DNA from: Planctomycetota bacterium
GTDB taxonomy: Bacteria > Planctomycetota > Planctomycetia > Isosphaerales > Isosphaeraceae
Length of the DNA stretch: 64,000 nucleotides
Assembly: GCA_028291545.1 (NCBI GenBank)
Contig: JAQGHR010000057.1
Location: forward strand, 102,313 to 166,312
Reading direction: 5' to 3'
The position numbers and the translations under genes were made by a program. The notes below the pieces were generated by a model. It was not told where the DNA came from, did no database searches, and saw only the letters and a program-made list of their open reading frames with translations. Shown piece after piece: positions 7,567-54,202 of this stretch. The stretch's first letter is position 1; each line of letters begins with the position of its first letter.

Positions 7567-8691
7567 CTACATCTTATTCACCAACGAGACGATGTCCATC
7601 GCCGCGTTCGGCCGTGCCAGGCGGAGCGAGTTCGCCCGCATCGCGGCCAGGCGGGCGGGATCATCGAGCAGCTTATCGACCTTGTAGGCAAGCACGGGGA
7701 GGTTATTGCACCGGATGGCGGCGCCCTCTTCGAGCAGGTGGTCGCTGTTCCGCTCTTCCTGACCCGGAATCGGGTTGACCACGACGTAAATCAGCCCCTT
7801 GGCCAGCGCCTCGGACGTCGTCAGGCCTCCCGGTTTGCCGACGATGAGATCGGCTGCGGTCATCAACTCGTGCATCTCTTTCGTGAACCCGAGCACCTTG
7901 AACGTGACCCTCGGATGCGAGGCAAGTCTCGCCACTTGATTCTCGACCTTGGTTTTCAACTCCTCGTTCTTGCCACAGACGGCAATAATTTGGGCCTCGT
8001 TTCGCAGATTAACCAGCGAGTCCAGCAATTCCTCGACGCGACCGACGCCGAACCCTCCCGCGGAAACCAGGATCGTCGTCAGATCCGCCCTGAGCCCGTG
8101 CTTCAATCGCATCGCCGCCTTGTCCGCCGGCGCCGAGAAGACCGGGTCGATCGGAATCCCGGTTACGGTGATGTGGCCGGGAGAAATGCCAAGCTCTTGC
8201 AGGTGAGCCCGGGTCTCGTCGATGGCCACGAAGTAATGCTCGCACCGCTGGCATAACCACATCGCATGCACGTCGAAATCCGTGACCACCGTGGCCTGCC
8301 GGCAAACGAGCTTGGCCTTGGCCCTCATCCAGGCGATGATTTCGGCCGGCAGGAAATGCGTACACACCGTGACGTCCGGCTGGTACTTCCGGAGCAACTT
8401 GGCGAACGGTCGGGTGTTCAATTTCTCGAAGGCGAGCTTGGTTGGCCGGTTCTTCCAGGGCGTGTCGAGCTGATCGTAGAGCCATCCCAGGACTTCCGGC
8501 ATGGTGTTGACCATATCGATGTAGGCCTTGGAATACATCCTCCGGAACAATGGGTTGGTGAATTCCAGAGTATCCACATGACGGACTTCCTCGACCTCTC
8601 CGCTTGCTTCGAAGGCTCTCTCCAGGGCTTGCGCCGCCCGGACGTGGCCAGCGCCGGCCGAAGCGGAGAGAATCAGGACTTTTCTCGGCAT
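7567..8691 (-). CDS. MGDG synthase/UgtP-like GT28-type glycosyltransferase
   Basis: MPRKVLILSASAGAGHVRAAQALERAFE...VTDFDVHAMW...VTGIPIDPVF...MTAADLIVGKPGGLTTSEALAKG. Confidence 0.85.
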   Translation of the reverse strand: MPRKVLILSASAGAGHVRAAQALERAFEASGEVEEVRHVDTLEFTNPLFRRMYSKAYIDMVNTMPEVLGWLYDQLDTPWKNRPTKLAFEKLNTRPFAKLLRKYQPDVTVCTHFLPAEIIAWMRAKAKLVCRQATVVTDFDVHAMWLCQRCEHYFVAIDETRAHLQELGISPGHITVTGIPIDPVFSAPADKAAMRLKHGLRADLTTILVSAGGFGVGRVEELLDSLVNLRNEAQIIAVCGKNEELKTKVENQVARLASHPRVTFKVLGFTKEMHELMTAADLIVGKPGGLTTSEALAKGLIYVVVNPIPGQEERNSDHLLEEGAAIRCNNLPVLAYKVDKLLDDPARLAAMRANSLRLARPNAAMDIVSLVNKM

Positions 8692-48308: not shown

Positions 48309-48774
48309 TGGAGAAACGGCTGCCAGAGCCGCCCCCACGGCCTCATCCTTGGTCCTGGCAGACTCTGCCTGCCACACGGACGGAGGATCGCGCCCATTTC
48401 CAGCGATTCCGGGATCGAATTCCGTCCCGGTCACGATGTTCTTCTCGGAAGTGTTGGTGACGAACCTCGCGTGGAAATGAGTTTCGATTCCTCTCGGGGG
48501 ATTTTTATTCCCTGACGGGCGGGGCAGCAGCGATCGAAAGCCGGGGTGGGTCGAGAGCATCTCGCAAGTACGGACGCCCCGCGCTCGCGTCGATGCAGGC
48601 GACGCTATCTCCGTGGAATTTCGCTCTGGGCAGAAAATTCCCCGTCTGATAAAGTCCGGCCCTTGATCTGCCGGGCACCACCTCGCACTTGATTCCGCAT
48701 GAACCCCGTCCGGCATGGAACGTTCGCGACTCACGCGTGCCGGATCGGTCCGCGCTCCCAAGGAGGGGATCGCC

Positions 48775-50034
48775 ATGAAGACTCGGAAGACGACGACGGC
48801 TCTGACCCTTGGCCTTGCCATCGGCCTGTCCATCCCGGCCTCGGCCCAGTACGGCGGCAAGGGCTCGCCCCAGCCGCCGCCGAGGGGTGGCGCGGGCACA
48901 ACCGTGCCGGGGACCTTCACCCCGCCGGGGACCGCGTCCAGAACAACGGCGACCGCAAAGGCCGGCAACCCGACCCGTGACCCGAACCTCCTTCGATCCA
49001 ACGATCAGGTCCCTGAGCCGATCTCGCTGGATCAGATCCAGGCGCCGAAACTCGCCGCGCTCGCGGAGCCGATCGATGCCTATTTGCTCCAGAAGGAGCA
49101 TGGCCCGTTCATGGTCTGCGCTTATAATTTCCGCGGTCCCGACGCCGCCAAGTACGCGCAGATCCTCGCGATGGAACTGAGACGCGAGTATAAACTGCCC
49201 GCGTACATCTGGTTCGTGAAGGTGCAGCCGATGCACAGCAACATCCAGGGCATCCAGCCGACGGCGCCGCCTCACGCCCGGAACGGCGACATGGCCCTCC
49301 CCGAGAAGCTCCGCACTCACGACGAAGCGGCCGTCCTGGTGGGAAACTGCAAGACCATCGACGAGTCGGAGAAGCTGCTCCATCAGGTCAAGAAGATCGT
49401 GCCGCGCTGCTTGAAGGACTTCCCCGTGATTTACCAGAATCGCAAGGGCAAGGGCCTCAATCGCGCGATGATGACGACGAATCCGTTCCAGCCCTCGCAG
49501 AACCTGTTCCCTGGCGCAGGCCCGGGCGTCGCTCCTCACGGACCGGTCGTCCAGCAGGGACAGAAGTTCGATCCCTTCGTCGCCATCCAGAATTTCGAGC
49601 AGACGAAGCCGGCGGACCCCTTGGTGTTGCTCATGAATAAAGGGTCGGGAAGCCTCTTCCACAATCCCGCCGCCTATACCCTTCAGGTGGCGGAATACAC
49701 CGGGCGAGCGTATTTCTTGCCCACGGGAGCCACGGTCAAGGACAACAAGGAAAGCCTGAAGACCAGCCCGCTCCAGACCGCTTTCGACGACGCGGAACAG
49801 CTTGTCGAGGCTCTTAACAAGTGCAAGAGCATGGGCGGCATGAAGGCGTACTTCTATCACTCGCGGTACGGCAGCGTCGTCACCGTGGGCGGATTCAACT
49901 CGCCGAACGACCCGAATTTCAAGCAGGTCTACGACAACATGAAGAACGTCTCCAAGGAGCTGAGCAGCAGGGGATTCACCCAACTCGCCCTGCGTCCCTC
50001 GCAAACGCCCATGCCAGTTCCAAAAGCCAAGTGA
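48775..50034 (+). CDS. Secreted hypothetical protein
   Basis: Shine-Dalgarno-like aaggagggg upstream; MKTRKTTTALTLGLAIGLSIPASAQYGGKG signal peptide; complete 420-aa ORF. Confidence 0.75.
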   Translation: MKTRKTTTALTLGLAIGLSIPASAQYGGKGSPQPPPRGGAGTTVPGTFTPPGTASRTTATAKAGNPTRDPNLLRSNDQVPEPISLDQIQAPKLAALAEPIDAYLLQKEHGPFMVCAYNFRGPDAAKYAQILAMELRREYKLPAYIWFVKVQPMHSNIQGIQPTAPPHARNGDMALPEKLRTHDEAAVLVGNCKTIDESEKLLHQVKKIVPRCLKDFPVIYQNRKGKGLNRAMMTTNPFQPSQNLFPGAGPGVAPHGPVVQQGQKFDPFVAIQNFEQTKPADPLVLLMNKGSGSLFHNPAAYTLQVAEYTGRAYFLPTGATVKDNKESLKTSPLQTAFDDAEQLVEALNKCKSMGGMKAYFYHSRYGSVVTVGGFNSPNDPNFKQVYDNMKNVSKELSSRGFTQLALRPSQTPMPVPKAK

Positions 50035-51399: not shown

Positions 51400-51437
51400 C
51401 ATCGGCCGGACGCTCCAGGTGGAGCGTCCGGCCGATG
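51400..51437. terminator. Long perfect hairpin between convergent genes, probable bidirectional terminator
   Basis: catcggccggacgctcc / ggagcgtccggccgatg 17-bp perfect inverted repeat, 4-nt loop (aggt), followed by ttgtt. Confidence 0.8.
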
Positions 51438-51464
51438 TTGTTAGAACCTCATCCTCGTCGATCC

Positions 51465-53741
51465 TCACACCCTCTTATGGGAGAAGAGGCGACCGAGGAG
51501 CGGGTGCTTCGCGTCGCATTCGCCGCAGGCCGGGATCACGGTGACCGGGCTTTGCGGGGAGGCGACACTCTGGGCCGACGGCAGGCACTGCGAGGAGGGC
51601 AAGATCGGGGCCGGGCAATGCACGGTCACGGCGACCGGGCAGTGAACGGTCACGGGCACCTGCTTGCAGATCGTCTTCGGCACGCAGATCGTCTTGCACT
51701 CGGTCACCTTCCGCACCACGCAGACCGGGACGCACTGGGTCGTGGTCACCGGTACCTGGCGGCAGACGGTGTAGGGGACCTTCTTGACGCACTGGATGGT
51801 CTGCGTCTCGCAGACGGTCTGCGGGACCATCTTGACGCATTCCTGCGGCACCATCTCGCAGACCGTCTGCGGGCAGTGCTTGGTCTTCACTTCCGACACC
51901 ATCCGGCAGGTCGTGACCGGAACCTGGCACTGCCGGACCTCGCAGACCGTGCGGCAGGTGGTCACGGGGACCTGCTTGGAGCAGACCTCCGACACCATGC
52001 GGCAGGTCGTGACCGGGACCGTCTTGGCGCACTGCTCTCTCACCATGCGGGTGATCGTGCAGGGCACCTGCTTCACGGCCGTCTCTCGCACGAGGCGAGT
52101 GACCGTATACGGCACCTGCCGGCTCATGGTCTCGGGCACGTTGATCGTGACCGTGTAGGGCACCGTCTGGCACATGGTCTTGGGGACCATCTTCGTGACG
52201 CTGACCGGCACGCAACGGGTCGCCGTGCGGGCCACCATCGTGCAGTAGGTGTAGGGAACGGTCTTGACGCACGTCTCCTGAATCATGCGGCAGGTGGTCA
52301 CGGGGACCGTCTTGCTGCACTGGGTCTGGACAGTCTCGCAGATGGTCTCGGGGACCTGCTTGGAGCAGACCTCCTGAACCATGCGGCAGGTGGTGACCGG
52401 AACCTGCTTCACGCATTCCTGGGCGACCATCGTGCAGGTCGTCACCGGCACGGTCTTCTGCGTGGTGACCGGCACCTGCTTGCAGATGGTGAACGGGACT
52501 TGCTTGCAGACGACCTGTCGGTCCATGACCGTCTCGCAGACCGTCTCCATCACGCTTCGGGGCCGGTAGACCGTCTTCTCGCAATAGGTCGGCGGGCTCT
52601 GAACCCAGCAACCGTTCACGCACACCAGCTTGCCCGGGATGCAAACCCGCTCGACCACCGGCTCGCAAATCGTCTTGCAGACCTGACGCGAGACCGTGCG
52701 GGGGACGCAGACGGTCTCTTCGACCGTGCGGCAACCCGTCTCGGTGACCGTCTGGTAGCTGGTCTCGCAGACCGTCTTGTAGGAGGTCGTCTGCACCGGG
52801 CGGCAGGTGGTGTAGCGAACCTCTTTCAGGACCGTCTCACGGACCGGCTTGCACACGGTGTAGTTGACGGTCCGCATGACCGTCCGCCGCACCGGCGTGC
52901 AGACCGTGTAGTTCACCGTCTTGTACGAGGTCTCGCGGATCGGCTTGCAGACAGTGTAGGGAACCTGCTTGTAGCCGCACTGACGCACCGGCACCATCGT
53001 CGTGTACTGCTGCGGCTGCATGACGGTGCAACTGACCGGCACGCTGACCGTGTAGGGAACCTTCTTGTAGCAGGTCTTCTGCTCCTGCCTGCAGACGGTG
53101 TAATAGCACGTCTTGAAGCAGGTCTCGCTGACCGGGCGGCAGACCGTGTAGGGAACGGTCTTCATGACCGTTTCCTGGACCGGTCGGCAGACGGTGTAAT
53201 AGCACGTCTTGTATGAGGTCTCGCGAACCGGCTTGCAGACGGTGTAACTGACCGTCTTCAGGTGCGTCTCCGTCACCGGACGGGCCACGGTATACGACTT
53301 GGTTTCCATGTGGGTCTCGCGGACCGGACGGCAGGTGGTGTAGGCCACTTCCTTCCAGATCGTGCGAGAAACCGGCCGCTGGACCGTGTAACGCTGTTCC
53401 CGCATCACGGTGCGGTAAACAGGCTTCTGGATCGTGTAGGGCACATCCTTGCAAAGCTGCTCCGTGACGGTCTGGATGGTGGTGACCGTCTTCGGCTGCA
53501 TGACCGTCTCGGCCACATCGCGTGTGGTCGTCACGTTCTGGGGAACGTAGATCGTCTCCTGCACCGGCTTCAACACGGTGCAAAGCTGATCCCGGTACTC
53601 AATATGTCCCCCGCACTCCTGCTCGGGTGGACAACAGCGGTTCGAGGCCGCTCCAGCATAGCTGGCCGCCTCCGTCGTGCGATCGGTCCCCCACACCCCA
53701 ACAAACAGGGCCATGAGCGCAACCGACAGAAGTTTACGCAT
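51465..53741 (-). CDS. Cysteine-rich YTV/VTT-repeat planctomycete surface protein
   Basis: Signal-like start MRKLLSVALMALFVGVWGTDRTTEA; repeats such as KTVPYTVCRPVSETCF, KTCYYTVCRPVQETVM, KQVPVTTCRMVQEVCS, KTVPVTTCRMIQETCV; C-terminal CGECDAKHPLLGRLFSHKRV. Confidence 0.9.
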   Translation of the reverse strand: MRKLLSVALMALFVGVWGTDRTTEAASYAGAASNRCCPPEQECGGHIEYRDQLCTVLKPVQETIYVPQNVTTTRDVAETVMQPKTVTTIQTVTEQLCKDVPYTIQKPVYRTVMREQRYTVQRPVSRTIWKEVAYTTCRPVRETHMETKSYTVARPVTETHLKTVSYTVCKPVRETSYKTCYYTVCRPVQETVMKTVPYTVCRPVSETCFKTCYYTVCRQEQKTCYKKVPYTVSVPVSCTVMQPQQYTTMVPVRQCGYKQVPYTVCKPIRETSYKTVNYTVCTPVRRTVMRTVNYTVCKPVRETVLKEVRYTTCRPVQTTSYKTVCETSYQTVTETGCRTVEETVCVPRTVSRQVCKTICEPVVERVCIPGKLVCVNGCWVQSPPTYCEKTVYRPRSVMETVCETVMDRQVVCKQVPFTICKQVPVTTQKTVPVTTCTMVAQECVKQVPVTTCRMVQEVCSKQVPETICETVQTQCSKTVPVTTCRMIQETCVKTVPYTYCTMVARTATRCVPVSVTKMVPKTMCQTVPYTVTINVPETMSRQVPYTVTRLVRETAVKQVPCTITRMVREQCAKTVPVTTCRMVSEVCSKQVPVTTCRTVCEVRQCQVPVTTCRMVSEVKTKHCPQTVCEMVPQECVKMVPQTVCETQTIQCVKKVPYTVCRQVPVTTTQCVPVCVVRKVTECKTICVPKTICKQVPVTVHCPVAVTVHCPAPILPSSQCLPSAQSVASPQSPVTVIPACGECDAKHPLLGRLFSHKRV
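51600..53450 (-). repeat. Coding repeat with about 16-aa (48-bp) period inside the YTV/VTT protein
   Basis: Successive 16-residue units align: KTCYYTVCRPVQETVM | KTVPYTVCRPVSETCF | KTCYYTVCRQEQKTCY | KKVPYTVSVPVSCTVM; in the other half KQVPVTTCRMVQEVCS | KQVPETICETVQTQCS | KTVPVTTCRMIQETCV. Confidence 0.85.
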
Positions 53742-54202
53742 GGATAGACGCTCCACGACAGCTCTCCGGACACGGGGCGGTCCCGTCGGTTCCATCCTCG
53801 GATGCCGGATCCTCCGGCGCGGGTCCGCCTACTCACTGGAAAGCATCGTCATACGGGGATTCCCCGCTTCAACGTCTTTCTCCAAATCACCCAGTAATCC
53901 CGGGTCGCCGAGAACAGTCTCTTGGCCATCTTTGACCCAGACCACGCGAACATCCAGGACAACCATAAGGAACACCGCAATCGGCGAACGCGGAGTGTTC
54001 CGCAGAATCGTTACGCCCGGATCAGTCCGTGCCTCGGACTTCGGGGCTCAGAAACGCCGAGCCCTTGGATTTGCTCGGGCCCCGTTCCGTGTTGGACGAC
54101 GATCGCTCCGAGCCTGCCACTCTTCGGTAGCGATCCACCCCCCTGTTCGGTTAGGCTTTGGTCCCTCTTCTCTCGATCGAATGCGCCTGGGATTCGATAA
54201 CC

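Follow-up and report, generated by a model that had tools for sequence, protein, structure and literature searches.

The window is a stretch of 64,000 nucleotides from a Planctomycetota bacterium of the family Isosphaeraceae, and the gene studied here lies on its minus strand (51465..53741), where it encodes a YTV protein with a precursor of 758 amino acids plus stop. The ORF starts at MRKLL, as do the orthologues; an alternative ATG exists upstream, at 53795, and conservation among the orthologues begins only at MRKLL.

All of the following parts are on the minus strand. Residues 1 to about 27 (MRKLLSVALMALFVGVWG..., 53661..53741) look like a Sec-type signal peptide, with an RK n-region and a hydrophobic h-region that are kept in the orthologues; the cleavage site is an estimate. 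After it comes an N-terminal cysteine cluster (SNRCCPPEQEC; residues 28–48, 53598..53660), in which Cys37 and Cys43 are present in 80–90% of the aligned orthologues. The N arm (residues 50–366, 52644..53594) is made of YTVC[RK]PVxET units and the C arm (residues 388–703, 51633..52580) of VPVTTCRMVxE units. The two are separated by a linker (residues 367–387, 52581..52643) with the sequence CIPGKLVCVNGCWVQSPPTYCEKTVYRP. The C-terminal tail (residues 704–758, 51468..51632) carries a motif, PACxxCDAxHPL, that is conserved in the orthologue alignment. We delimited the N arm from its repeats, the orthologues, structure prediction with AlphaFold2 (AF2) and coevolution measured by mutual information (MI), and the C arm from AF2 and MI. 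The protein has 67 cysteines, 18% valine and 16% threonine, and the cysteines together with the signal-peptide-like start predict that it is secreted or exported.

A long plus-strand ORF (51435-53216) lies opposite the gene; the simplest explanation for it is that the repeated codons produce it incidentally. The neighboring genes are for RNase PH, a secreted-looking protein, a Ham1-like NTPase, a DNA alkylation repair protein, an SDR and an ArgJ-like protein, where the Ham1-like and ArgJ-like names are putative and come from sequence. ArgJ adjoins a YTV gene at two other loci as well (L047 and L048). The secreted-looking protein (48715-50034, plus strand, two genes from the YTV gene) has 439 amino acids and no Pfam match. 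An Rfam scan of the locus found no RNA family. The YTV gene stands alone, outside any envelope operon.

Repeats, orthologues and family

The repeat period is 16 residues. Autocorrelation of residues at lag 16 is 0.364, and this is far beyond chance because the maximum over 500 shuffles, at any lag from 1 to 69, was 0.137. There is a weaker period-8 component (0.22). Read from the sequence, the units of the two halves are the same 16-residue unit, with 8 of 16 positions identical between KTVPYTVCRPVRETSY in the N half and KQVPVTTCRMVSEVCS in the C half. The initial annotation had described units of this length over nearly the whole protein, the two motifs and the linker between them, and in all of this it was right.

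It had also pointed to YTV-type proteins of planctomycetes, which is borne out by a match to Pfam YTV (PF07639) of 211.6 bits against a gathering cut-off of 21, spread over 11 stretches; no other Pfam family was found. The same genome has one more YTV gene, with about 537 codons, on a different contig. Most genomes of the order have a full-length orthologue with 51–66% identity, and the named matches are from Singulisphaera and Isosphaeraceae MAGs. At least one YTV match was found in 43 of the 45 genomes of the order, including all 26 that have a completeness of at least 90% and a contamination of at most 5%. In a sample of the phylum, 21 of the 23 YTV-positive genomes belong to the class Planctomycetia (0 of 14 controls were positive), and the remaining two have weak matches to cysteine-poor pilin-like proteins. 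Apart from these two weak matches, the family is restricted to the class.

Three large proteins from another class of the phylum (L259, L260 and L261, genomes G013 and G063) have cysteine-poor YTV-like arms, of the form YTVQVPVYETQ ... GGTTIGDSGDG ... TYTVEVPVYETQ, inserted around a glycine-rich loop. The arms split an otherwise non-repetitive protein into two halves, and two of the three have a prepilin-like N-terminus (GTILIVVVLFLATAVAALAA). Apparently the same hairpin device as we propose below occurs here as an insertion in a pilin-like protein.

When we aligned 29 orthologues (51–66% identity), there was no indel in residues 46–700 except within the linker, which is the only place where orthologues have them. 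The register of the repeats is therefore conserved and, as the repeats themselves carry no indels, the number of units is fixed and this is not a freely expandable fibre. Cysteine and threonine had been expected to recur at a fixed register; the register is indeed rigid, but the number of cysteines is not, and it varies from 35 to 82 among orthologues. The cysteine of the C-arm TTC is conserved in most units, and that of the N-arm YTVC is often lost.

The protein belongs to the same family as the YTV wall proteins of Rhodopirellula, Gemmata and Tuwongella, which are cysteine-rich and secreted like it and have been reported from SDS-resistant walls (PMC5287468, PMC8567305), and it shares its two-arm layout with the well-repeated members that we inspected. 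It differs from other YTV proteins in being long (758 amino acids) and strictly 16-periodic, and in having full-length orthologues in the majority of the order's genomes. Family membership is thus ordinary, and the architecture is not.

Pairing of the two arms

We compared all positions of the N arm with all positions of the C arm by MI in 30 orthologues. A single ridge came out, at i+j=753, with a score of 13.9. The next sum outside 751–755 scored 3.7 and all other sums were below 3.8; these sums serve as internal controls, since they keep the relatedness of the sequences. When the pairing of rows was shuffled (50 shuffles), the best score was 4.45. There are side ridges at 751 and 755, as is expected for neighbors on the same face. 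The ridge is positive in all twenty 16-residue blocks, from 50/703 to 365/388, and 753 was the top sum in 8 of 8 random half-sets of the orthologues.

A second orthologue group, 94 sequences of a YTV protein of about 460 amino acids, has its ridge at i+j=503, both by MI (21.5, shuffled maximum 4.28) and by mean-field DCA (17.9). The unit register is common to both groups, with the tyrosine of the N-arm unit facing position 10 of the C-arm unit. A set of 14 paralogues gave a weak ridge, where the top sum of 546 fits the same register offset and a smear at 474–481 competes with it. Correlating only the presence of cysteine between columns (28 orthologues) gave no clear sum, as phylogeny swamps the signal.

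Structure prediction agrees with the coupling. We ran AF2 on a piece of 176 residues centered on the linker (precursor residues 289–464) together with three relatives, and it returned a single antiparallel hairpin with strands at 2–80 and 97–175, 79 residues each, and a mean pLDDT of 88.8. In this piece, which spans only about five units per arm, i+j is 177, and this corresponds to 753 in precursor numbering. Two further short strands are modeled in the turn region formed by the linker. Its pTM of 0.28 is low, which a long flexible ribbon would lead one to expect. For the whole mature protein the model is poor overall (mean pLDDT 30.6), though at this low confidence it too has two long strands flanking the linker, with i+j about 753. 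AF2 can favor regular beta structures on repeats. A single register comes from the structure predictor, the coupling analysis and two orthologue groups, which all agree. The initial annotation was correct that there are two distinct repeat halves. They are not separate domains, however, as AF2, MI and DCA all pair the arms residue by residue.

The strict period of 16 with its sub-period of 8 would also suit a beta-solenoid, in which the units stack as coils of a helix, one coil per unit. Ice-nucleation protein repeats are beta-solenoids of this kind, with 16-residue coils and threonine at fixed positions, and in both respects the YTV repeats are like them. A solenoid requires coupling between i and i+16, and the coupling pattern contradicts this: in the orthologues of the window's protein that coupling is 1.0, compared to 13.8 for i+j=753. 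In the second group it is 7.7 compared to 23.8, and similar signals at 32 and 48 make it look like homogenization. Solenoids are also absent from the AF2 models of both the full-length protein and the linker piece, and the units of 12 and 14 residues found in relatives would break coils, but not strands. We consider the solenoid largely refuted and give it next to no chance.

The arms also change together in length and pattern. Among the 94 sequences of the second group, the repeats show just one indel event shorter than a unit: each arm has lost two residues, at symmetric places (sum about 505), and the two deletions compensate each other. This is a single event in one clade. One sequence of the 94 (L249, genome G401), and only this one, is missing a 16-residue unit of the N arm, and its C arm has no matching loss. 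In the hairpin model this loss would be tolerable, because the register repeats every 16 residues, but it is still uncompensated; it reflects either a collapse in the assembly or a coordinated change in length caught midway.

In 13 irregular members of the family the two arms share a super-period within each protein (28/28, 44/44, 76/76 and others). The super-period in both arms is 28 in ten proteins, 44 in L080 and 76 in L091, and across the family the periods common to both arms are 16, 28, 44 or 76. The match between the N-arm and C-arm spectra within proteins exceeds that of all 20,000 random pairings, which is not a strict probability because the proteins are related. In L091, the unit lengths (14 or 16) read outward from the linker are mirrored between the arms for 16 of 17 units, and the odd unit lies where the repeat has decayed too far for its pattern to be recognized. 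L091 (genome G167, a YTV frame of 885 codons) also has near-identical copies of its 76-residue super-repeat in both arms, the result of a recent amplification in the two halves of this one gene. The unit lengths seen across the relatives (12, 14 and 16) are all even, as is expected if the units are strand, because alternate residues then point to opposite sides. The locked co-variation of distant halves, together with the paired deletions and the matched super-repeats, is an unusual evolutionary constraint.

A conventional surface fibre, linked by disulfides and made of two repeat domains independent of each other, would account for secreted cysteine-rich repeats. The arms, however, coevolve over their whole length and change length together, so the halves are not independent; their independence is refuted and we find a fibre of this sort very improbable.

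Pairing within one chain and between two chains give the same coupling signal, so the ridge at i+j=753 is equally expected for a domain-swapped ribbon, in which N and C arms from different chains pair, so that an open chain of molecules makes ribbons of double length or endless ones. This would also explain how polymers form without disulfides. On the other hand, the AF2 model of a single chain is a closed hairpin, its turn predicted with high confidence, and the YTV-like arms around a glycine-rich loop in the pilin-like protein of another class fit a closed hairpin. The compensated indels within one chain and the indel-tolerant turn fit a hairpin as well, yet they are compatible with a swap. 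We regard a domain swap as unlikely.

Our preferred reading is that the exported protein folds as one antiparallel hairpin, with the N-half and C-half repeats as its two strands and the linker as its turn. Residue i would face residue 753-i, and each arm, at about 316 residues, would be about 100 nm long if fully extended. A sequence search of the PDB found no solved structure for any YTV protein, and a fold search of the PDB gave no match above TM 0.2. The published YTV descriptions in the papers accessible to us speak only of cysteine-rich wall proteins with YTV motifs, and we found no hairpin, other fold or assembly principle for them in the literature that we reached. That literature covers the earlier work on the wall only in part, and priority for the hairpin cannot be claimed with certainty.

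Faces of the proposed ribbon, cysteines and the cell wall

The product would be a two-stranded ribbon of a single layer. Its two faces differ sharply in composition, with V at 37% and R/E/K at 33% on one, and T at 30%, P at 14%, Q at 11% and C at 10% on the other. OspA and the G5-E rods of SasG/Aap are elongated single-layer beta structures too, with no hydrophobic core between two sheets, but their strands are short compared to the full-length strands of about 316 residues in the YTV model.

We then asked which residues face each other at i+j=753. E-R and D-K pairs are enriched. Facing pairs of cysteines are avoided: there are 0, where 19 are expected from shuffles (minimum 9), and in the second group 9, compared to 148 expected (minimum 124). 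Shifting the register by one unit gives 29–56 facing cysteine pairs, and 176–200 in the second group. We rejected facing disulfides within the ribbon, as such pairs are avoided in both orthologue groups. Disulfides, if they form, should therefore be mostly between molecules or at the base of the hairpin. The simplest reading of the cysteine placement is that disulfides within the ribbon may be selected against, with the thiols kept for other molecules, and so the disulfides would probably link mostly different molecules. The terminal cysteine clusters (CC and QEC in the N-terminal one, PACxxCD in the tail) would, in the model, meet at the open end of the hairpin. A scheme of fixed crosslinks is weakened because the number of cysteines varies two-fold among orthologues.

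The matches of the fold search, at TM 0.09–0.20, are hairpin stems of pore-forming proteins (lysenin and aerolysin) and phage tail parts. The lysenin and aerolysin stems are long two-stranded hairpins like the YTV model, but they are staves of a membrane barrel and have no sequence relation to the YTV protein. YTV hairpins could likewise line up next to each other to form large beta-barrels or tubes, serving as pores or surface tubes and not as a mesh, and planctomycete envelopes do carry pores, which have been reported in wall preparations (PMC8567305). Fold matches of TM 0.2 at most are weak grounds for this, though, the Thr/Pro/Cys and Val/charged faces are unlike those of membrane barrels, and the length of the strands far exceeds the thickness of a membrane. 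Barrels or tubes strike us as quite unlikely.

The view that planctomycetes have a protein wall goes back to the 1980s, and YTV proteins are the main known constituents of that wall. They rank among the major components of walls boiled in SDS (PMC5287468, PMC8567305), being the main proteins of such walls in Gemmata (PMC5287468). In Tuwongella wall preparations they were the top matches and were recovered only in the SDS-soluble fraction (PMC8567305). One YTV protein is essential in Planctopirus limnophila (PMC10632474). The earlier suggestion of a disulfide-linked surface or wall fibre thus holds in part: because YTV relatives are major in SDS-boiled walls, a wall role is supported, and from the sequence disulfides seem plausible, whereas the halves do not act as independent domains.

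Peptidoglycan has been reported biochemically in other planctomycetes (PMC4432640). In the order of our bacterium, none of the 45 genomes has a match to MraY or MurG above the cut-off. The MraY result is not a failure of the search, as the same search was positive in 103 of the 119 genomes of the phylum sample, including YTV-bearing genomes of another family. The window itself has a distant MurG-like glycosyltransferase (7582-8397, minus strand; G000:C12:109894-110709); it scores 47 bits, far below the cut-off, and the genome has no true MurG. With MraY and MurG absent above the cut-off and YTV proteins the main wall proteins of relatives, a protein network is likely to be the main wall in this order.

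Taking this together, we think it probable that the wall YTV protein is a single giant antiparallel beta-hairpin, crosslinked into a wall network. The hairpin fold is well supported. The mesh we infer, and the intermolecular disulfides, the geometry of the network and its bearing of load should be read in the same way. In this model, the cysteines are positioned so as not to face each other across the ribbon, and the ribbons would be stacked or placed next to one another, with intermolecular disulfides and the cysteine clusters at the open ends holding them together. The outcome would be a load-bearing protein network, resistant to SDS, in an order without MraY and MurG above cut-off.

The hairpin model gives a testable building block for the poorly understood protein wall of planctomycetes, with predictions at the level of residues: which residues face each other, which face bears the cysteines and what length the rod has. 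If the model holds, so long a ribbon of two strands would be extreme among beta structures. More tentatively, and as a possibility short of a probable one, the order that lacks MraY and MurG may build a stress-bearing protein wall from two-stranded beta-ribbons of about 100 nm. These might be the longest beta-hairpins known, and both their faces and the placement of their cysteines would be adapted to crosslinking one molecule to another. If this is true, the ribbons would be to a protein wall what glycan strands with their peptide bridges are to peptidoglycan.
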